Positions 36,298 to 47,229 of a stretch of DNA of 47,252 nucleotides are shown here, piece by piece; within the stretch, counting starts at the first letter, position 1, and each line of letters starts with the position of its first letter. The stretch spans positions 1-47,252 of the forward strand of contig NZ_NFLU01000018.1 of the NCBI RefSeq assembly GCF_002161085.1, written 5' to 3'. The notes beneath the pieces were generated by a model. It saw only the letters and a program-made list of their open reading frames with translations, did no database searches and had not been told where the DNA came from. Origin of the DNA: Flavonifractor sp. An112 (GTDB lineage Bacteria > Bacillota > Clostridia > Oscillospirales > Oscillospiraceae). Both the position numbers and the translations under genes were made by a program.

Positions 36298-37101
36298 TTA
36301 CCAGCGGTCTTTCTCTTCGGCGTAGAGGGAGGGCAGGATGGCGGCCAGATGGCCGAATTCCTTCAGATTATGGGCAAACAGGCCCATGGGCACCACCGGG
36401 GGCACGCTGACGCCGTCGGGCAGCAGCTTGACCACCTGGCCGTCCACCAGGCCGTAGCCGATCCAGAAGCGGGAACGCAGCTCGATCCCGCCCTCGATCT
36501 CCCGAACCATGTGGGTCATGATGGCGGCCACACCCTGGCCGGGTACCGGTCCATGGCCGTTGGCGCACATCATAGTGGCGCAGGCGGGGGTACCAACTTT
36601 GGACTCGTCGTATCCCAGCTCATGGGGATAGCGGAAGTTCAGGATCAGCTCGTCGGGACCGCCTCCTACGTCCTCCAATACATGGTGAACGGTGCCCCAA
36701 GTTTTTTCCCGCATAGGCACGCTGGGGTCCAGCACCTTGTCCGGATTCTGCTGACGGGCGTAGAAGTGGTCCTCCGGGTCCCAGATGCGGTAGCGCATAT
36801 CGTTCAGGCCGTGCCAGGCAAACCACCACTCAAACATCTCAGGAGTGACGCCGGGCATCTCAGTGCGGTTGGCCAGATAGCCGGTACCGTTTGGCATCAC
36901 ACAGTAGCCGGTCTCACAGGGCAGATAGCCGGGCAGGAACAAATCGTTGCGATCCTCAATCTTCAGGGCCAGAGAGGGATCAATAGGGCCGCCCTCCAAG
37001 ATGGCAAGTTTCTCCTGGGGAATGGGAGTAATGGGCAGATCATAGTACTTGGCGTAAGACAGCGCCCGCTCCTCCGGGGTAAGAACAGGTCTTTGGCTCA
37101 T
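36298..37101 (-). CDS. DAPG/phloretin hydrolase family protein (zinc C-C hydrolase)
   Basis: Encodes 267 aa, close to the Eubacterium ramulus phloretin hydrolase and a little shorter than Pseudomonas PhlG. His112 (DHFYARQ), Glu143 (VLEDVG), His244 and Glu248 (FAHNLKEFG) have the spacing of the four zinc ligands of that family (H-31-E, then HxxxE). The WWFAWHGLNDMRYRIW segment is also characteristic. Such enzymes cleave an acyl-aryl carbon-carbon bond: phloretin to phloroglucinol plus a phenylpropionate, or diacetylphloroglucinol to the monoacetyl form. ATG at 37101 with AGGAGG upstream. A TetR gene is divergent. Ligand numbering is from memory of the characterised enzymes; which substrate is used is not known. 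Confidence 0.85.
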   Translation of the reverse strand: MSQRPVLTPEERALSYAKYYDLPITPIPQEKLAILEGGPIDPSLALKIEDRNDLFLPGYLPCETGYCVMPNGTGYLANRTEMPGVTPEMFEWWFAWHGLNDMRYRIWDPEDHFYARQQNPDKVLDPSVPMREKTWGTVHHVLEDVGGGPDELILNFRYPHELGYDESKVGTPACATMMCANGHGPVPGQGVAAIMTHMVREIEGGIELRSRFWIGYGLVDGQVVKLLPDGVSVPPVVPMGLFAHNLKEFGHLAAILPSLYAEEKDRW

Positions 37102-37159
37102 AACAGCTCCTCCTTTTTCTGTTTGTTCTGTGTGAAAAAGATAGCATAAACTACCTCTA

Positions 37160-38236: not shown

Positions 38237-39076
38237 TTACATACTCTTTTTCAATTCCAGGTTGCGCCGCAGGGGCGCGGGCCCCCGCCAGGCAAAGGCC
38301 CGGTCACCGTACTTCTCCCGGAAGGTCCGGTTGGTGAGCCCCTCCAGGTCGGCCCGGTCCAGGGCATCCACCAGCCCCTCCCGGAACTCAGGCAGAGGGG
38401 ACAGGGCGGGATGGGCGTTGTAGGGGCACACCCGCTGGCAGGTGTCGCACCCCCAGATCAGTGGGTGAGCCTGCACCAGCCCCGCCTCCTCACCAGTCAG
38501 CTCCCCCTTCTTCTGGGTCAGCTCGGACAGACAGCGGGACAGGTCCACCCCAGCCTCCCCCAGGGCGCCGCCGGGGCAGGCGGCCAGACACTTGCCGCAG
38601 CCCACACAGTGGGCGGACGGCGTGCGGGGCGGCAGGTTCAATTCCACATCGGTGAGGATAGTGCCCAGGAACACATAGCTGCCGTAGGGAGGCAAAATCA
38701 CCAGCCCGTTCTTCCCCCGCAGGCCAATGCCGCACCGCCAGGCCGCCTGCCGCTCCGGCAGGGGGGAATTGTCGGCGGCGGGCAAAAACGCCCTATTTTT
38801 GTATTTTTCTCGCAAAATATCACAAATAGTATTTAGTTTTTCGGTGACTACCTGGTGATAATCCCGCCCACGGGCGTAGAGAGACAGGTTGCCAGGCCGG
38901 TCCCCGGCGTAGTAGGGGAAGGCGGCCACCAGCACGGTGCGGGGGTTGGGGCACAGCTGTTCCGCCTTTGCGATGGCCTCGGGGGTCATGTCCTCCGCCA
39001 GTTCTGAAAACGGCAAGCCGCCCCAGGCGGCGGCGCCCGCGGCGGCAAAAGCCTTATTCAGCATGGTCACGGTCAT
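38237..39076 (-). CDS. QueG-like Fe-S protein (epoxyqueuosine reductase family)
   Basis: Encodes 279 aa. Two 4Fe-4S motifs: CVGCGKCLAACPGGAL (about residue 195) and WGCDTCQRVCPYN (about residue 243). The N-terminal part has the QueG-like SLYARGRDYH and FLGTILTDVEL motifs. QueG performs the last step of queuosine synthesis by reducing epoxyqueuosine in tRNA. It is shorter than typical QueG (about 310-380 aa), the shortfall being at both ends. Two starts, 39076 and 39064, are possible; it overlaps murE either way (23 or 11 bp), so it is translationally coupled. Whether it reduces epoxyqueuosine or another substrate is open. Confidence 0.82.
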   Translation of the reverse strand: MTVTMLNKAFAAAGAAAWGGLPFSELAEDMTPEAIAKAEQLCPNPRTVLVAAFPYYAGDRPGNLSLYARGRDYHQVVTEKLNTICDILREKYKNRAFLPAADNSPLPERQAAWRCGIGLRGKNGLVILPPYGSYVFLGTILTDVELNLPPRTPSAHCVGCGKCLAACPGGALGEAGVDLSRCLSELTQKKGELTGEEAGLVQAHPLIWGCDTCQRVCPYNAHPALSPLPEFREGLVDALDRADLEGLTNRTFREKYGDRAFAWRGPAPLRRNLELKKSM

Positions 39077-40586
39077 ACTTGTCCAAAGCCTGCCGGGCCA
39101 GCACTCCGTCGGGGATACAGGGCTCGGGGCCGTTCTTCCGCTTCTGGGCCTCCTCGCAGCCCTTGCCCGCCAGCAGCACCACAGCGGGACGCTGGGCCTC
39201 CAGGATGGCGGCCTCCACAGCCCGCTCCCGGTCGGGGATGACGGTGTAGTCCTTATTCCACCGCTTGAGGAACACGCCGATGTCGGCGCAGATGTCCTCC
39301 ACTTCTTCAGGACCGGGATCGTCCTCGGTGAGGATGATCCGGTGGGCCCACTCGCCGGCGGCGTTGCCCATGCCCTCCCGGCGGTCGATGCCCTTGCCGC
39401 CGGTGCAGCCGAAGAGGACCGTCAGCTGCCGGTCAGGGTACTCCGCCCGGACGGAGCGCAGGGCGTTCTGCAAACTCATGCCGTTGTGGGAATAGTCCAC
39501 AATGACGGAGATCTGGTTGTCGGCGCTGACATAGTGCTCCATGCGTCCGGGGACGAAGGCCTTCTCCAGACCTTCCCTCACCATCTCCTGGGGGATGCCA
39601 TAGACCTCGGCCACCGCCACGGCGGCCAGGGCGTTCTCCACGTTGAACAGGCCGGGGGTGGAAATGGCCATGTCCCCCTCGTAGCGAGGAGTGCGAACGT
39701 GGAAGGCGATCCGGTTGCCCTCCTTGCGCACGTTGGTGCCATACACGGTGGCGGCAGGGTCCTTCTGGGAGAAGGTGATGACCTGCTCACACCGGGCGGC
39801 GGCCTGAGCCACCTCAGAGGTATGATCGCAGTCCATGGAAATACAGGCGGTTTTCGCCTGCTTAAAAATCAACAGCTTGGATTGGAGATAGTCCTCCAGG
39901 TCGGGGTGCTCCACCGGGGAGATGTGGTCCTCGCCGATGTTGAGGAACACGGCGCAGGACAGGTCCACCCCGATGACCCTGCCATATTTCAGGGCCTGGG
40001 AGGACACCTCCATGGTGAGGTAGTCCGCCCCGGCGGTGACAGCGTTGGACAGGTGCCGCTGGAGGTCCAGAGGCTCCGGGGTAGTCAGCTTGGCGGGCTT
40101 GCGCTCCAGGCCGTCGTCGGTGACGATGGTGGAGAGCAGGGCGCTCTCCCGGTGGCCCTGGGCAGCCAGCCAGGTATCCACGATGGACTTGATATAATAG
40201 GCCGTGGTAGTCTTGCCCTTGGTGCCGGTGATGCCGGTGATGGTCAGCTTGCCGGAGGGGTGGCCGTAGGCCAGATCGGCCAGCAGGCCCATGGCCTGCC
40301 GGATGTCGGTGACCCGCAGGCAGGGCAGGGGCACGTTGGGATAGGGGGTCTCGCTGACATACACGAAGGCCCCCTTGTCCATGGCCTGGCGCAGGTAGTC
40401 CTCCTTGAACTTGGCCCCCTTGCAGATGAAGAGGGTGTGGGGGATCACCACCTGGGAGTCGCAGGACACCAGGGCCACCGGGGCGGTCAGGTCGGCGTGG
40501 ACCGGCCCCTTGTCGGCCAGCAGGTCATGGCGCAGCAGCAGCTGCACATAGTCGCCCAAAGGGCGGCGGAAATCGGTCATAGTCAT
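39054..40586 (-). CDS. murE: MurE-like UDP-MurNAc-tripeptide synthetase
   Basis: Encodes 510 aa. ATP site TGTKGKTTT (about residue 122), SSQALKYGRV (middle), and a C-terminal domain with FGCTGGKGIDRR and LLAGKGCEE. MurE adds the third, diamino, acid of the peptidoglycan stem. The motif that fixes the amino acid, DNPR in diaminopimelate enzymes, reads DDPG here (EDDPGPE, about residue 422), so DAP may not be the substrate; lysine, ornithine or another amine are possible. It sits in a tight operon with an Asp/Glu racemase and an ATP-grasp ligase. Whether the chromosome has a second, canonical murE is not visible here. Confidence 0.88.
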   Translation of the reverse strand: MTMTDFRRPLGDYVQLLLRHDLLADKGPVHADLTAPVALVSCDSQVVIPHTLFICKGAKFKEDYLRQAMDKGAFVYVSETPYPNVPLPCLRVTDIRQAMGLLADLAYGHPSGKLTITGITGTKGKTTTAYYIKSIVDTWLAAQGHRESALLSTIVTDDGLERKPAKLTTPEPLDLQRHLSNAVTAGADYLTMEVSSQALKYGRVIGVDLSCAVFLNIGEDHISPVEHPDLEDYLQSKLLIFKQAKTACISMDCDHTSEVAQAAARCEQVITFSQKDPAATVYGTNVRKEGNRIAFHVRTPRYEGDMAISTPGLFNVENALAAVAVAEVYGIPQEMVREGLEKAFVPGRMEHYVSADNQISVIVDYSHNGMSLQNALRSVRAEYPDRQLTVLFGCTGGKGIDRREGMGNAAGEWAHRIILTEDDPGPEEVEDICADIGVFLKRWNKDYTVIPDRERAVEAAILEAQRPAVVLLAGKGCEEAQKRKNGPEPCIPDGVLARQALDKYDRDHAE

Positions 40587-40602
40587 TCACCACCAGAAAC
40601 TT

Positions 40603-40627
40603 GTAGGGCCGATGTCTCCATCGGCCC
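40603..40627. repeat. REP-like palindrome, variant copy
   Basis: GTAGGGCCGATG-tctc-CATCGGCCC, in the 46-bp gap between the racemase and murE genes. GTAGGG start as in the other copies. Confidence 0.6.
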
Positions 40628-40632
40628 ATTGC

Positions 40633-41334
40633 TTATACCATCCGCAGCTTGTAGCCGCAGGCGGTGATACACCGCTGAGCCAGCACGTCCATGGCGTCCA
40701 GATAGTGGTCGGGCAGGCCGTGATAGGTGCGGTAGACAGACAGCTCGGTGCAGCCCAGAATGGCGCTGTCGCACCCGGCCTGACGGAGCCAGCGGTCAAT
40801 GACGGCGAATTTCTCCCGGGAGCCCTTTTCCCCCCGCTTGATCTCGTCGTAGATGATGCTCATCACCAGCTTCTGGACCTCCTCCGGCGGGGAGACGGCC
40901 TCAATGCCCCGGGCGGTACACTCCTTCTGGTACACGCCGGTGCGGATGGTGCCGTCGGTGGCCAGGATGCCCACCTTGCGCCGCCCCTCCTCCGCCAGCA
41001 CTCCCACAGTCTCCCGGGGCATATGGATGAGAGGGATGGAGATATCCCCCTGGAGCCGGTCGGCAAAGTAGTGGGAGGTGTTGCAGGGAATGGACAGCAC
41101 GGTGCAGCCGCCCCCCTCCAGCAGACGGGCACCCGCCAGCAGCCGCTGGTAGCAGCCCTCCGCATCGCCCCCCAGAATGGCGGCGGTGCGGTCGGGCATG
41201 GAGGTGTCGCTCCAGATCAGGGTAGGCAGGTGCTCCTGGTCTTTGGCCGCGTCGGTGCGGTCCAGAATCCGCTGATAAAAGTCCTGGGTGGCCTGGGGCC
41301 CCATGCCGCCCAGAATACCAAGGCGTTGTTCCAT
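40633..41334 (-). CDS. Aspartate/glutamate racemase family protein
   Basis: Encodes 233 aa. LGILGGMGPQATQDFY (residues 5-20) and the two catalytic cysteine regions, SIPCNTSHYF (about residue 83) and AILGCTELSVY (about residue 195). It interconverts L- and D-Asp (or Glu) without a cofactor. The ATG shares its A with the stop of the ligase gene (TAATG), so it is coupled to that gene. By context its product is most likely D-Asp for the neighbouring ligase. Confidence 0.93.
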   Translation of the reverse strand: MEQRLGILGGMGPQATQDFYQRILDRTDAAKDQEHLPTLIWSDTSMPDRTAAILGGDAEGCYQRLLAGARLLEGGGCTVLSIPCNTSHYFADRLQGDISIPLIHMPRETVGVLAEEGRRKVGILATDGTIRTGVYQKECTARGIEAVSPPEEVQKLVMSIIYDEIKRGEKGSREKFAVIDRWLRQAGCDSAILGCTELSVYRTYHGLPDHYLDAMDVLAQRCITACGYKLRMV

Positions 41335-42545
41335 TATTTCACCTTTTCCATACAAGAGGCATACCAGCCCACATACCGCTTCTGGCCCTTCATAATGCGC
41401 AGGGTACGCACCAGGCCGTTGTCCGGCTTGTAGAACAGGGGGTTGACCACGGCGCCCGCCTTCTCCAGGGCCTTCATCTCCTCATGGTACTTGGGATTCA
41501 CATAGTCGTAGGCCACCTTGGGGGGAATGACCCACCACAGATGGCGGTTTTTGGTAATGGTCAGCTCACAGCTCTTGCCCAGCACCCGGTCCTCCACCAG
41601 GTACTTGGCCAGGTTGTAGCCCGCGCCGGTGACATAGTAGTTGGACCGGCCCTGGCGGCAGTTGATCTCAAAGGCCTTAAACTTGCCGTCCCGCTGGTCG
41701 TACTTGATGTCGAAGTTGGAGAAGCCGGTGAACTTGATGGCTTCCAGGAAGCCCTTCAGCTTCTCGCACAGCTCAGGCTCAGGCTCGGTGATGATAACGG
41801 CGTGGTTGCCGATGGCGTGGGCGGTGTGCTCCTCCAGCAGGACGTGGCCCACGCACATGAGGCGCACCTGCCCGTCCTGGCCGGAGTAGTTGGTGACCAC
41901 CCGCATATAGCTGTCGTCACCGGGAATAAAGTCCTGGATGATGAGGGAGTCCTCATATCCGGCGTTGTAGATGTCGTCGATGACTTGGTCCACCTCTTCC
42001 CGGGTCTGGAGGACATAGGCCTTCTTCTGAGTGGGGAAGGGATGCTTCCAGTAGGTGTCCGACTCGGCGGGCTTGACCACAAAGGGGCCCTCAAAAGGCA
42101 GGGTAAAGCCGTGGCCCTCCCCCTTGTGGTAGACGTAGGTGGCCGGATGGTCGATGCCGTACTGGTCGCACAGGTCGTAGAACTTCTCCTTGTGGATCAG
42201 GGTCTCCAGCATGGACAGGTCCACATAGGGGGCGATGACGTTCTCGGGGTAGTTGGGCAGGTTGGCGGAGATGGAGTTGAGGTAGTTGTCTCCGCAGCCC
42301 AGCACCAGAATCTTCTTGTCCGGGTGCTCTTTGGCCACCTCGTTGACGTTCTCCAGCACCTTGTCCACCCGGTCGTTGTGCTCCCGCACCCGGTAGTCGA
42401 TGATCTTGCTGCCGGCGCACACGCTGGCGGGGAACATTCCATACACCACGGAATGTACGCCGTAGGCCTCATGGAAGGCCCGGGCCATGCTGTAGGCGTT
42501 GATGTCCGAGCCTAACAGCACGGGCACAAATTCAGTTGCAGCCAT
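41334..42545 (-). CDS. ATP-grasp carboxylate-amine ligase (D-aspartate ligase-like)
   Basis: Encodes 403 aa. N-terminal FVPVLLGSDINAYSMARAF, then the ATP-grasp fold: PFVVKPAESDTYWKH (about residue 155), SLIIQDFIPGDDSYM, and the metal-binding KAFEINCRQGRSNYY (about residue 305). The combination of this ligase with an Asp racemase in one operon is that of aslfm and racfm of Enterococcus faecium, where the ligase joins D-Asp to the side-chain amine of the peptidoglycan precursor. The ATG at 42545 has GGAGG 9 bp upstream; the open frame beyond it covers the small gene upstream and is not coding. The D-Asp assignment is inference from family resemblance plus context. Confidence 0.85.
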   Translation of the reverse strand: MAATEFVPVLLGSDINAYSMARAFHEAYGVHSVVYGMFPASVCAGSKIIDYRVREHNDRVDKVLENVNEVAKEHPDKKILVLGCGDNYLNSISANLPNYPENVIAPYVDLSMLETLIHKEKFYDLCDQYGIDHPATYVYHKGEGHGFTLPFEGPFVVKPAESDTYWKHPFPTQKKAYVLQTREEVDQVIDDIYNAGYEDSLIIQDFIPGDDSYMRVVTNYSGQDGQVRLMCVGHVLLEEHTAHAIGNHAVIITEPEPELCEKLKGFLEAIKFTGFSNFDIKYDQRDGKFKAFEINCRQGRSNYYVTGAGYNLAKYLVEDRVLGKSCELTITKNRHLWWVIPPKVAYDYVNPKYHEEMKALEKAGAVVNPLFYKPDNGLVRTLRIMKGQKRYVGWYASCMEKVK

Positions 42546-42747
42546 TGTAAAATGCCTCCTGGAAGGTAATTTCATACCAATGTTCGCCCATGGGAATAAC
42601 CTGGGCGCAATAATGTCCCGCCACATAGGCGGCCTGGGCCTCGGTGAGCCGCAGCTCCCGCCGGAGCAGCTCTCCGCCCGCAAAGCACTGGGAGATCAGC
42701 CGGTCCAGGGTCTCGTTTTCTTGCAGTATCTCTCTCTGAATCATCAT
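42532..42747 (-). CDS. Small protein upstream of the ligase, unknown
   Basis: Encodes 71 aa (70 if the second ATG is used): MIQREILQENETLDRLISQ, then ELRLTEAQAAYVAGHYCAQV. It is acidic at the start and mostly helical. GAGGAG lies 5 bp before the first ATG. Overlaps the ligase gene by 14 bp, so it is coupled to it. Not recognised. Confidence 0.7.
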   Translation of the reverse strand: MMIQREILQENETLDRLISQCFAGGELLRRELRLTEAQAAYVAGHYCAQVIPMGEHWYEITFQEAFYNGCN

Positions 42748-42822: not shown

Positions 42823-45057
42823 TTATCCGGCAGCGCGTTTCACTTGGTACACGCCCTGGATCTGACCCAGCTTGTTGATAACGGCGGTAAGCTCGGTGTG
42901 GTCCTTCACCTCCAGCACAATGCTGACGGTGGCGTAGCCGTCGGGCATGGACCGGGCGGACAGGCTGGTGGTCTTAGCCTTCATGGTGGACAGGGCCATG
43001 GCCACATCGAGAGTCAGGCCGTCCCGATCCTTGGCGGCGATCTCCAGGGAAGTGCGGTAGGTAGACAACTCTCCGCTGGCCCAGGATACCTTGATCCAGC
43101 GGCCCTCCTCCTCCGGCTTGCGCTTCTCGGGGGCGGCGTTGGGGCAGTCCGCCCGGTGGACGGAGACGCCGAAGCCCCGGGTAATAAAGCCCACCACCGG
43201 GTCGCCGGGCACGGGGGTGCAGCACTTGGCGAACTTCACCAGGCAGTTGTCGATGCCCTCCACGATGATGCCGCTCTGGTCGTGCTTGCCGGTCTTGACG
43301 GGCACGGTGGGCTGATTGCTGGTGGCGGGATAAATGGCATCCTGCTGCTGGGCCGTCTTTTCGGCGGCGGCCGCCTGCTCGGCGTGGAGTCGGTTGAGCC
43401 GGGTCATCTCGTCCTTGACCCGCACCACTGCCTTCTGGGCGGACATACCGCCGTAGCCGATGGCGGCGTACAACTCATCCAGGGTGCCGAAGCGCACCTT
43501 CTTCAAAATAAAGGGCAGCACATCCTCAGCCGTGATGGCCGCCAGAGACAGGCCCACGTGCTTGAGCTCCGACTCGAAGGAGGCCCGGCCGGTGGCGATG
43601 TTCTCCTCCCGCCGCTCCTTCTTGAACCACTGACGGATCTTGTTGCGGGCCTCGTTGGACTTGCAGATCTTCATCCAGTCCCGGCTGGGACCGTGGGCCG
43701 ACTTGGAGGTGATGACCTCCACGATGTCGCCGTTTTTCAGGGGGGTGTCGAAGGTGACCATGCGGCCGTTGACCTTGGCCCCCGTCATGTGGTTGCCCAC
43801 GGCGGAGTGGATGTTGTAGGCAAAGTCGATGGGGGTGGCCCCGGCGGGCAGGTTGATCACGTCGCCCCGGGGGGTGAACACGAACACCTCGTCGGAGAAC
43901 AGGTCCACCCGCATGGTGCGGACAAACTCCTCGGCGTCCACGTCCTGCTGGCTCTCCAGCAGCTTGCGCACCCACTCAAAGGCCTCCTCGGTGCCCAGCT
44001 TGGTGTTGGCCATGCCCTGCTTGTACTTCCAGTGGGCGGCGATGCCGTACTCGGCGGTATGGTGCATCTCCCAGGTGCGGATCTGCACCTCGAAGGGGAT
44101 GCCGTCCCGGCCGATGACGGTGGTATGAAGGGACTGATAGCCATTGGGCTTGGGCGTGCCGATGTAGTCCTTGAACCGGCCCAGCACCGGGTTAAAGAGA
44201 TCATGAATGACGCCCAGCACATTGTAGCACTCCGGGATGTCATCTACAATGACCCGGAAGGCATAGAGATCAAAAATCTCATCCATGGTCTTGTTCTGGG
44301 TGTACATCTTCCGGTAGATGGAATAGGCGTGCTTCACCCGGCCGTAGATGGTGCAGTGGATGCCCTCGGCGTCCAGCCGCTCCTGAATGCGCCGCTGGAC
44401 GGTGGCCAAAAACTCCTCGTGGGCGGCAGATCGGGCGGCCAGCTCATCGGAGATCTCTTTGTAGCCCACCGGGTCCAGGTAGCGCAGGGAGGTATCCTCC
44501 AGCTCCCACTTGATGCGCTGCATACCTAAGCGGTGGGCGATGGGGGCGTAGATCTCCATGGTCTCCAGGGCCTTCTCCTTCTGCTTCTTGGGAGACTGGT
44601 ATTCCATGGTGCGCATATTGTGAAGCCGGTCGCAGATTTTAATCAGGATCACCCGGATGTCCTTGGCCATGGCCATGAGCATCTTCCGCAGGTTCTCCAT
44701 CTGCTCCTCTTCCTTGGAGGTATACTGTACCCGGGTCAGTTTGGTAACGCCCTCCACCAGGTCGGCCACCACCGTCCCGAAGAGCTTGGCGATCTCCTCG
44801 TGGGTGGAACCGGTGTCCTCGATACAGTCGTGGAGCAGAGCGGCAATGATGGAGTCGGTGTCCAGCTCCAGCTCGGCCACGATCTCGGCCACCGCCAGGG
44901 GATGGGTGATATAGGGCGATCCGTCCTTACGCAGCTGCCCGGAGTGGGCATTGTCCGCATAGGTGAACGCGCTGAACAGGCGCTGGGTGTCCAGTGCCGG
45001 ATTATAGGTTTTGATTTTGTCCTCAAGAGCCTGATAACGCTCCAGGATGGGGTCCAT
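42823..45057 (-). CDS. relA: Bifunctional (p)ppGpp synthetase/hydrolase
   Basis: Encodes 744 aa. Order of domains: HD hydrolase (HDCIEDT, about residue 78), synthetase (GRVKHAYSIYRKM, about residue 240, and GYQSLHTTV), TGS (VFTPRGDVINLPAGATPIDF, about residue 393) and C-terminal ACT domain. Makes and degrades the alarmone (p)ppGpp. The start is ATG 45057: AGGAGG lies 8 bp upstream and overlaps the alternative GTG at 45066. 39 bp after recJ, same strand. Confidence 0.96.
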   Translation of the reverse strand: MDPILERYQALEDKIKTYNPALDTQRLFSAFTYADNAHSGQLRKDGSPYITHPLAVAEIVAELELDTDSIIAALLHDCIEDTGSTHEEIAKLFGTVVADLVEGVTKLTRVQYTSKEEEQMENLRKMLMAMAKDIRVILIKICDRLHNMRTMEYQSPKKQKEKALETMEIYAPIAHRLGMQRIKWELEDTSLRYLDPVGYKEISDELAARSAAHEEFLATVQRRIQERLDAEGIHCTIYGRVKHAYSIYRKMYTQNKTMDEIFDLYAFRVIVDDIPECYNVLGVIHDLFNPVLGRFKDYIGTPKPNGYQSLHTTVIGRDGIPFEVQIRTWEMHHTAEYGIAAHWKYKQGMANTKLGTEEAFEWVRKLLESQQDVDAEEFVRTMRVDLFSDEVFVFTPRGDVINLPAGATPIDFAYNIHSAVGNHMTGAKVNGRMVTFDTPLKNGDIVEVITSKSAHGPSRDWMKICKSNEARNKIRQWFKKERREENIATGRASFESELKHVGLSLAAITAEDVLPFILKKVRFGTLDELYAAIGYGGMSAQKAVVRVKDEMTRLNRLHAEQAAAAEKTAQQQDAIYPATSNQPTVPVKTGKHDQSGIIVEGIDNCLVKFAKCCTPVPGDPVVGFITRGFGVSVHRADCPNAAPEKRKPEEEGRWIKVSWASGELSTYRTSLEIAAKDRDGLTLDVAMALSTMKAKTTSLSARSMPDGYATVSIVLEVKDHTELTAVINKLGQIQGVYQVKRAAG

Positions 45058-45096
45058 ACAGGGCACCTCCTGTCGAAATAAAAATGAAAGGGAAAT

Positions 45097-47163
45097 TTAT
45101 CCGCTCATGCCCCGCAGCCGGCGCATGATCCAGCTGTCATCCAGATCCACCTTGCCCTCCACCGTCCGCAGGGCGATGTGGAGGTGATCGGTGGTGTGCT
45201 CCAGCTGGATCAGTCCCCGCTCGTCAAAGACCTCCAGACATACCAGAGTACGCATGACGGTCTCCCGCCGTCCGGCGGAGCGGGCGATGTTGCGGGCCAA
45301 CCGGTGGGCGGTCTCCTCCAGAGGAGACTGTCCGGCATGGCCCTTCAAATAGCGCCAGAGAACCACGAACTCCTCTCTGGTGGGCAGCAGGGCGGCCGCC
45401 TCCCGGCGGGTCAGTTCCTCGCCCCGGCGGAATTTTTCAAAGAGGGCCCGCTCGGCCTGGGCCCGGGTAAGGGCGGGGCGCAGGTCGCACACCTGGAACT
45501 GGACCGAGCGCCACCCCCGGTACTCATTGACCTGGGGGGTAAAGGCCACATCCACCCGGTCTCCCTGGGCCACCCCCATCTCGGCGGCGGTGGCGGAGAA
45601 GAAAATGGCGTCAAAACTGCGGCCGCCGGAGGCCAGCTTCAGCTTCAGATGCCGGCCGCCCCCCACCTCGCTGAGGGCGGTGATGAGGCAGCCCGACAGG
45701 GAGAACACCGGCTTGGGGTTGCCCGAGCCATAGGGCTCCAGCAGGTCCAGTCCCTCCACCCCTTCCAGGGTAAGGATACCCACATCGTCCACCGGACAAT
45801 CCACATCCAGGGTGGACACCATCTCGGCGCCGCCGGTACACTGGCGGACATAGTCGTTCATGGCGGCGGTAAAGGCGGGGATGTTCTCCTCCAGAATGGT
45901 AAAGCCCGCCGCCAGCTCATGGCCGCCGAAGCCCTCCAGCAGGGGGGCGCAGTGCTCCAGAGCGGCAAACAGGTTGAAGCCGCCGAAGGACCGGCAGGAG
46001 CCTTTGCCCTTGCCGTCCTGGAGGCAGATCATAAAGGCGGGGCAGGAGTATTTCTCCGCCAGGCGGGAGGCCACAATGCCCACCACCCCCTGGTGCCAGT
46101 GGTCGCCGGCCAGCACCAGAGCATAGCGCTCCTCCGGCGGCAGGGCCTCGGCCAGCTCCTGGCACTCGGCGGAGATCTGGGCCTCAATGGTCTGCCGCTC
46201 CCGGTTCAGCTCGCACAGCTGGATGGCCAGTTCCTCTCCCCGGGCGGGATCGGCGGTGAGCAGCAGCTCGGCGGCCAGGGAGGCGCACCCCATCCGGCCC
46301 GAGGCGTTGAGCCGCGGGGCCAGGGTGTAGCCGATGGCCACCGAATTGAGGGGCCGCTCCTCCAGGCCCGCCTGCCGCAGCAGGGCCTTCAGGCCGGGGC
46401 GGCCGGTGTGGCGCAGGGCCTCCAGCCCCAGGCGCACAATGGTGCGGTTCTCCCCGGTGAGGCTCATCACGTCGGCCACCGTACCGATGGCCGCCAAATC
46501 GGCGTACCGGTTCAGCAGTTCCTCCTGCCGGGGCTTCCCACCCAGGGCCAGCACCAGCTTGAGGGCCACCCCCACGCCGGCCAGACATTTAAAGGGATAG
46601 GGGCAGTCGGCCTGGTGGGGGTCCACCACCGCCAGCGCGGCGGGCAGTTCCTCCTTGCACTCGTGGTGGTCGGTGATCACCAGATCCATGCCCAGACGGG
46701 CGGCGTGGCGGGCCTCCTCCACGGCGGTGATGCCGCAGTCTACCGTCACCACCAGACTGACCCCCGCCTGGTGGAGGGTATCCAGGGCGTCGGTATTCAG
46801 GCCGTAGCCCTCCTCCATCCGGTCCGGGATGTAGGAGATCACATCTCCCCCCTCCCGCCGGAGGAAATCGGTGAGCAGGCTGGTGGAGGTGATGCCATCC
46901 ACGTCGTAGTCGCCGTAGACTGCAATGGTCTCCCCCGCCGCCAGGGCACGGGCCAGCCGGGCGGCGGCCCTGTCCATATCCTTCATCAGCAGGGGGTCCT
47001 GAAGCTGACCCCGTCCCGCATCCAGAAAGGCACGGGCCTTCTCCGGGGTATCCATCCCCCGGGCGCACAGGGTCATGGCCGCCAGAGTGGGCAGTCCCGC
47101 CCGCTCCAGAGCGGCCACCGCGGCCGGATCGCTGGCCGCCTGATTCCATTGTTTGTATTTCAT
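45097..47163 (-). CDS. recJ: Single-stranded-DNA-specific exonuclease RecJ
   Basis: Encodes 688 aa. DHH phosphoesterase motifs: VYGDYDVDGITST (about residue 83), ITDHHECKEELP (about residue 160), and DHH-associated domain with FGGHELAAGF (about residue 415). A 5'-3' exonuclease in recombination and mismatch repair. The start ATG 47163 has AAAGGACGG upstream; the open frame to 47229 runs into the promoter. Longer than E. coli RecJ by a C-terminal domain of about 110 residues, common in Firmicutes. Confidence 0.95.
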   Translation of the reverse strand: MKYKQWNQAASDPAAVAALERAGLPTLAAMTLCARGMDTPEKARAFLDAGRGQLQDPLLMKDMDRAAARLARALAAGETIAVYGDYDVDGITSTSLLTDFLRREGGDVISYIPDRMEEGYGLNTDALDTLHQAGVSLVVTVDCGITAVEEARHAARLGMDLVITDHHECKEELPAALAVVDPHQADCPYPFKCLAGVGVALKLVLALGGKPRQEELLNRYADLAAIGTVADVMSLTGENRTIVRLGLEALRHTGRPGLKALLRQAGLEERPLNSVAIGYTLAPRLNASGRMGCASLAAELLLTADPARGEELAIQLCELNRERQTIEAQISAECQELAEALPPEERYALVLAGDHWHQGVVGIVASRLAEKYSCPAFMICLQDGKGKGSCRSFGGFNLFAALEHCAPLLEGFGGHELAAGFTILEENIPAFTAAMNDYVRQCTGGAEMVSTLDVDCPVDDVGILTLEGVEGLDLLEPYGSGNPKPVFSLSGCLITALSEVGGGRHLKLKLASGGRSFDAIFFSATAAEMGVAQGDRVDVAFTPQVNEYRGWRSVQFQVCDLRPALTRAQAERALFEKFRRGEELTRREAAALLPTREEFVVLWRYLKGHAGQSPLEETAHRLARNIARSAGRRETVMRTLVCLEVFDERGLIQLEHTTDHLHIALRTVEGKVDLDDSWIMRRLRGMSG

Positions 47164-47200
47164 GGGCGGCCACCGTCCTTTCCCATTAAAATTACCCTTT

Positions 47201-47229
47201 ATTATATCAAATGCCTTTCCCTGTGACAA
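47201..47229 (-). promoter_or_regulatory. Promoter of recJ
   Basis: Minus strand TTGTCA (47229-47224), 17 bp, TATAAT (47206-47201), 38 bp before the start codon. It probably drives recJ-relA and may read on into the ligase operon. Confidence 0.82.

Follow-up and report, generated by a model that had tools for sequence, protein, structure and literature searches.

The closest described systems are the aslA-racD pair of Lactococcus lactis and Aslfm of Enterococcus faecium, in which an ATP-grasp ligase and an aspartate racemase are encoded in one operon. According to PMC4155827, AslA of L. lactis is an ATP-grasp enzyme using D-aspartate (D-Asp) as beta-aspartyl phosphate, racD lies in the same operon, and AsnH amidates D-Asp afterwards; its passages on this operon mention no murE there and ascribe one wall type to those species, and asnB1 is placed together with murE in Lactobacillus plantarum. 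Here, we analyzed a stretch of 47,252 nucleotides from Flavonifractor sp. An112 (contig NZ_NFLU01000018.1; contig C10 of genome G000, 2.96 Mb, 99.86% complete), which as a whole is called the window below. It carries a ligase-racemase pair that looks to be of this kind, and here the unit also includes a gene for a MurE, while a MurE of the diaminopimelic acid (DAP) type is encoded elsewhere in the genome. A model-made note on this DNA (the original prediction) had proposed a five-gene operon for a D-Asp side chain with its own MurE.

We favour, with moderate confidence, a smaller assembly: a three-gene unit for peptidoglycan of the lysine/ornithine (Lys/Orn) type with a D-Asp branch, the DAP-type MurE being used for the spore. 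The sequences show the gene content, the placement of the proteins in families and clades, the recurrence of the gene order and the coexistence of two MurE types; the substrates, the branch and the timing of each precursor are what we infer. The MurE of the unit (MurE2) would extend UDP-N-acetylmuramyl-L-alanyl-D-glutamate (UDP-MurNAc-L-Ala-D-Glu) by L-Lys or L-Orn, the racemase would supply D-Asp, and the ligase would turn D-Asp into beta-aspartyl phosphate for its attachment to the third residue, at the amine of the side chain, in the manner of AslA. The lysine-type precursor would then go to the growing wall and the DAP-type precursor to the spore. The five genes of the locus, which all begin with ATG and contain no internal stops, are as follows, in the direction of reading.

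42532 to 42747, minus strand: protein of 71 residues, no family; its last codons contain the ribosome site of the ligase gene
41334 to 42545, minus strand: ATP-grasp ligase of the Aslfm/AslA type, probable D-aspartate ligase, 403 residues, from an ATG with AGGAGG
40633 to 41334, minus strand: racemase of the aspartate racemase type, 233 residues (PF01177, TIGR00035, NF052483, alignment to 1jfl)
39054 to 40586, minus strand: MurE2, the second MurE, with the motif DDPG, placed with the lysine type in the tree
38237 to 39076, minus strand: short QueG-like protein (TIGR00276, QueG structures 5d08 and 5d6s, exclusion with QueH)

The ligase, the racemase and MurE2

The ligase matched no Pfam family at E 0.001, gave weak PRK12767 matches only among NCBIfam models, as did the lactobacillar ligases discussed below, and had a best E of 2 against solved structures in a phmmer search. 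Its AlphaFold model, built with 19 homologues, has an ATP-grasp fold (predicted local distance difference test, pLDDT, of 90.8). The Foldseek list of this model was headed by 3vot, an L-amino acid ligase, and by PylC, each with a template modelling (TM) score of about 0.5, and it also included PurK, the scores being about 0.5-0.6. PylC joins D-ornithine by an amide bond to the side-chain amine of lysine, which is the same kind of bond as that proposed for the ligase.

Searches with the ligase used positions 41334-42566, seven codons more than the called frame. By tblastn in plasmid records we obtained 46 records, mostly distant Priestia proteins; five of the records reach a query coverage of at least 80%. 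At this coverage stand an unannotated homologue in Subdoligranulum variabile (44.9% identity), the ligase of Lactobacillus crispatus (37.6%), which adjoins asnB, that of Limosilactobacillus fermentum (33.3%), adjoined by neither a racemase gene nor asnB, and two homologues of Methanosarcina (22%). The protein of Latilactobacillus curvatus (37.9% identity, 77% covered) adjoins an amino acid racemase and lies near aspS. When 32 invariant positions were taken from a 19-row alignment of the ligase, all 32 were kept in L. crispatus, 31 in L. curvatus and 30 in L. fermentum; a generic ATP-grasp protein used as a control (L048) kept 16. Judged by these lactobacillar homologues, the ligase is probably a D-aspartate ligase of the Aslfm/AslA type. 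The likeness to aslfm/racfm drawn in the original prediction is thus supported, as the lactobacillar ligases are homologous over their length, keep nearly all invariant residues, and in one case adjoin a racemase and in another asnB.

The racemase (query 40633-41337, one codon longer than the called frame) matches PF01177 and scores 214.6 bits on the aspartate racemase model TIGR00035, whose cut-off is 93.1. Its PCNTSH and GCTEL motifs, with both cysteines that we take to be catalytic, align to aspartate racemase 1jfl, and the residues of 1jfl which presumably bind the second carboxylate also line up. A point that weighs against aspartate as the substrate is the score of 212.1 bits on NF052483, the model of cysteate racemase CuyB (cut-off 190). 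However, the racemases of four other ligase units score 185-207 bits on this model, two of them below the cut-off, and since they straddle it, the cysteate label does not decide the substrate.

Two proteins of genome G000 lie above the MurE cut-off, one on contig C38 (505.6 bits) and MurE2 in the window (328.3 bits). The C38 protein has the motif DNPR and lies near frames that look, by eye, like ftsW and mraZ; this DAP-type MurE looks like a member of a division and cell-wall cluster. MurE2 has DDPG, without the arginine of DNPR, a lysine before the motif where the DAP type has arginine, and the motifs GTKGKT and SSQA. A tree of MurE proteins, 40 in number and picked by hand, places it in a group of 25 rows with the lysine MurE of Enterococcus faecalis and the MurE of L. 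curvatus (support 100/100), while the C38 protein groups with DAP references from Escherichia coli, Bacillus, Paenibacillus, Monoglobus and Priestia (100/99); the branches of E. coli and Vescimonas in this tree are long and several rows fail the composition test. Among the 12 records obtained by tblastn with MurE2, the best placed was the same E. faecalis lysine MurE (38.5% identity). MurE2 thus shares with the lysine-adding MurE of Lactobacillales its side of the tree, GTKGKT, SSQA, the lysine in place of the DAP-type arginine and a DDPx motif, but differs from them in being only 35-39% identical, in scoring below the NCBIfam cut-off and, in some relatives, in being fused to an acetylglutamate kinase. 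Judged on its sequence, MurE2 belongs to the lysine side but has diverged within it, and the third residue which it would add could be Lys or Orn.

Several points speak against a lysine-type MurE2. The E. faecalis protein is the sole one annotated as a lysine ligase on that side of the tree, where the L. curvatus and Collinsella proteins are annotated as DAP ligases; L. curvatus serves as a Lys reference on our own assumption. On the lysine-ligase equivalog NF010628, MurE2 reaches 346 against a cut-off of 536, so it is not filed under that family, and it is equally high on a DAP-labelled model (347.6 bits). At 16 sites which discriminate five DAP references from the two Lys references (E. faecalis and L. 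curvatus), MurE2 is Lys-like at seven, DAP-like at five and neither at four; at the same sites the C38 protein is DAP-like throughout.

These results also bear on two claims about MurE2 itself. Its specificity motif had been called unusual: it does differ from DNPR, but DDPG is also found in the MurE of L. curvatus and is neither unusual nor unique. The unit had further been suggested to set the third amino acid by its own MurE; the protein does fall among the lysine types in the tree, but it is not the sole MurE, and with the second, DNPR-bearing MurE in the genome the idea that one unit sets this residue is not supported. Two further loci of the lysine side were noted. In Collinsella aerofaciens (L194:5892-9446) asnB stands directly before the MurE that is annotated as a DAP ligase and groups with the lysine side, and in Vescimonas fastidiosa (L196:7911-9398) the long-branched MurE of that side is close to pgeF, thyA and spoIIID.

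Recurrence of the unit and of a second MurE

Homologues of the ligase, the racemase, MurE2 and the QueG-like protein are found in many loci. A scan of named genomes yielded at least 563 relatives; the 80 best by similarity were kept as loci (L079-L158); a further set comprised 35 relative loci, with four genomes common to both sets and L048 dropped as too distant. The ligase is present in 45 of 149 relatives and, by a profile search that includes weaker matches, in 28 of 398 genomes of the phylum; named carriers include Clostridium aminobutyricum, Sinanaerobacter chloroacetimidivorans, Bacilliculturomica massiliensis, Drancourtella massiliensis and Evtepia gabavorous. Downstream of the ligase, a racemase follows in 63 of the best 80 loci, MurE2 in 63, and both on the same strand in 52, where 11 of the 80 have less than 2.5 kb downstream of the ligase. 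The 35 relative loci hold a racemase in 28 cases, MurE2 in 19 and asnB in seven (L035-L040 and L044), directly adjoining the ligase in four of these (L035, L037, L038, L044). The core of the original prediction is therefore supported, as the order ligase-racemase-MurE recurs in many Clostridia, but its extension to all five genes fails. With asnB near the ligase in relatives, next to the ligase in L. crispatus and before MurE in Collinsella, the loci resemble the AsnH and AsnB1 units, from which the window differs in having no asnB among its five genes.

Possession of the ligase goes together with possession of more than one MurE. Of the genomes taken as good (completeness of 90% or more, contamination of 5% or less), 19 of the 24 with the ligase and 7 of the 77 without it encode two or more MurE proteins (Fisher p = 1e-10, on a tally made by hand and uncorrected for kinship, with 8 of the 19 belonging to one genus). 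In eight loci (L131, L134, L135, L137, L140, L141, L150, L151) a further MurE lies close to MurE2; these proteins are 36-38% identical to MurE2, all have DNPR, and one is encoded on the opposite strand. A protein of this further type is the only DNPR MurE found in G084.

The link is not strict, and its exceptions count against the proposed unit. Five good ligase-positive genomes (G024, G089, G108, G112, G131) have a single MurE match with the motif DNPR or DNSR, hence the ligase occurs without a lysine-type MurE; the weak ligase match of G108 (6e-7) probably represents another enzyme. In G109 the MurE adjoining the ligase has DNPG and stands on the DAP side of the tree, and conversely a lysine-type MurE without the ligase is found in G099, G123, G138 and G141. 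The genomes with a DNPR or DNSR MurE alone favour an alternative in which meso-DAP, or an acceptor outside peptidoglycan, receives D-Asp or a related acid from the ligase, MurE2 acting in some other small-molecule pathway, and the racemase score above the cysteate cut-off and the fusion of MurE2 to a kinase domain in relatives point the same way. MurE2, however, groups with the lysine-annotated MurE and keeps TTPE, the SS motif, an arginine and the active-site lysine common to DAP- and Lys-adding MurE, residues which we take to lie around the UDP-MurNAc-dipeptide. We regard this alternative as improbable.

The fusion joins a C-terminal N-acetylglutamate kinase domain to MurE2 in 16 of the 80 named-genome loci and in seven of the 35 relative loci (L046, L047, L060, L062-L065); Evtepia gabavorous (L099) is one of the species with the fusion. 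An extension of 300 residues on MurE2 had been considered as a fusion to QueG; it is the kinase domain. Two fused domains that were scanned score 234 and 220 bits on TIGR00761, against 151.3, and residues K8, R66, N158, D162 and K217 of E. coli ArgB, whose roles in catalysis we assume, are conserved in the nine fused domains compared. A stand-alone second ArgB was found in six of seven fusion genomes checked, which rules out the fused kinase as the only ArgB of the cell in these six; G055 has the fused one only. The fusion hints, at the level of sequence, at a supply of ornithine. In the open-licence literature we did not find a MurE-kinase fusion.

Two MurE types and sporulation

In Lysinibacillus (Bacillus) sphaericus, growing cells have a Lys-D-Asp wall and spores have DAP. 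The present case, as proposed, resembles it in that a spore former combines two MurE specificities with a D-Asp branch; the difference is that we deal here with Clostridia, in which the lysine-type MurE is linked to a ligase and a racemase. In the open-licence literature we did not find this dual-wall precedent.

A prediction was set down ahead of the last of the genome searches. We used a model of the lysine-type MurE, built partly from sequences of the same genomes, on 395 genomes from the order, each with a completeness of at least 90%. The model splits them cleanly, with 55 genomes at E of 3.3e-161 or better and the rest at 5e-139 or worse. Another MurE match is present in 50 of the 55 and absent in five. 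SpoIVA was found in 49 of the 50 dual genomes (in G609 as a partial match only) and in one of the five lysine-only genomes (Fisher p = 7e-5). What is new here is that, where SpoIVA is present, a lysine-type MurE is usually accompanied by another MurE.

There are reservations about this link as well. Four lysine-only genomes devoid of SpoIVA belong to one genus and, counted once, they give p = 0.08. Scoring was limited to the three best candidates of each genome, so that a second MurE may have been missed, and its type was read in 11 of the 50 dual genomes only, all with DNPR or DNSR. In most relatives SpoIVA is present anyway (129 of 149), and thus presence of the ligase alone says nothing about spores. 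G123, a dual member of the same genus as these four, has SpoIVA. This is one suggestive case in which the DAP-type MurE was lost together with sporulation and the lysine-type MurE was kept, which agrees with the precedent of B. sphaericus; the ligase was not found in G099, G123 and G141, the three genomes searched from that family.

SpoIVA itself is in two pieces, split near residue 400, in G017, G014, G050 and G091. In G017 the pieces (C13:22670-23881 and 70213-70494) lie on the same strand about 46 kb apart, and in the other three genomes on other contigs. The split looks like a skin-type element inside spoIVA.

Two genes stand upstream of the five on the same strand, separated by gaps of 30 and 75 bp.

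45097 to 47229, minus strand: recJ
42823 to 45066, minus strand: relA/spoT, often a neighbour, found in 25 of the 80 named-genome loci

With relA/spoT directly upstream, the D-Asp-bridge unit could serve in a different manner, both MurE proteins being used in growing cells as a mixed wall, or being switched by a condition such as the stringent response or lysozyme and not by sporulation. Such an arrangement would agree with the dual genome G792, which has no SpoIVA, and with the lysine-only genome G589, which has it, both of which contradict the spore link; moreover, with SpoIVA in 373 of the 395 genomes, that link discriminates weakly. Against it stand the four genomes without SpoIVA, which yield the lysine-type MurE alone, and their dual congener, in which SpoIVA is present. 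We consider a mixed or condition-switched wall unlikely, and a DAP-type MurE kept for the spore remains the reading we prefer. On the chemistry of the wall in Flavonifractor or Oscillospiraceae we found nothing in the open-licence literature, which does not imply absence of publication but counts among the points against the proposal; in the main text of one review the genus Flavonifractor does not appear. On two MurE genes, none of the matches listed there was, by title, on this group.

Neighbouring genes and the meaning of two predicted wall types

The QueG-like protein matches both PF08331 (DUF1730) and PF13484 (double 4Fe-4S). It scores 165.2 bits on TIGR00276, below the cut-off of 200, which was exceeded in none of 23 genomes searched, and it aligns to QueG structures 5d08 and 5d6s over most of its length, at 279 residues compared with 437 in 5d08. 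The original prediction suggested a new role for it in the unit. When 22 genomes were searched for both proteins, 12 had a QueG-like protein without QueH and nine had QueH without a QueG-like protein, and G034 had QueH together with a partial QueG-like match of 70 bits. The exclusion thus holds in 21 of 22 genomes (p = 2e-5), or in 22 of 22 (p = 1.5e-6) if the partial match is set aside. Because the two proteins are mutually exclusive, and neither a second QueG-like match nor QueH was found in G000, the protein is most likely the epoxyqueuosine reductase of the cell, from a gene for queuosine in tRNA, and a neighbour of the wall unit rather than its member. It probably shares a transcript with this unit. 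A single new pathway of five genes, with the Fe-S protein acting on a wall precursor, could appeal to the adjacency of MurE2 and the QueG-like gene in 6 of the 80 and 11 of the 35 loci, and to their occurrence together, away from the ligase, in G082. However, the QueG-like gene lies apart from MurE2 in G048, G055, G061 and G062, and on the exclusion with QueH we reject the protein as a part of the wall pathway and take it as probably serving ordinary tRNA modification; we hold such a pathway to be highly improbable. A misleading lead is thereby taken away.

As to the layout, three of the four joins overlap, as the original prediction had it: the small protein and the ligase by 14 bp (42532-42545), the ligase and the racemase by 1 bp (41334, TAATG), and MurE2 and the QueG-like gene by 23 bp (39054-39076). 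The racemase and MurE2 are separated by a gap of 46 bp. By its sequence context, the most likely start of the ligase is the ATG at 42545; an AGGAGG precedes it by about 10 nt, within the end of the 71-residue frame. Among Flavonifractor and its near relatives, 21 loci keep this small frame, which has the pattern GGE..RRELRLT...WYEITFQ and no Pfam or NCBIfam match at E 0.001. With recJ and relA/spoT upstream, the five genes may form the last part of a longer transcript. Elsewhere in the window of this gut anaerobe, a protein encoded at 36298-37104 on the minus strand scores 271 bits on the DAPG hydrolase family PF18089, above its cut-off.

The type of the wall decides which innate sensors, lysozymes and endolysins act on a cell; NOD1 senses DAP and NOD2 muramyl dipeptide. 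For Flavonifractor, a common gut genus, the genome predicts two wall types. More tentatively, two complete systems for the third residue may provide a developmental switch of the wall in many spore-forming gut Clostridia, Flavonifractor among them, from a Lys/Orn-D-Asp wall made by the linked ligase-racemase-MurE2 unit in growth to DAP in the spore, with the fused kinase of one branch feeding ornithine to MurE2; we put this forward as a possibility that is rather doubtful as a whole. In any case, the MurE-kinase fusion raises a direct question, namely whether the third residue is ornithine.

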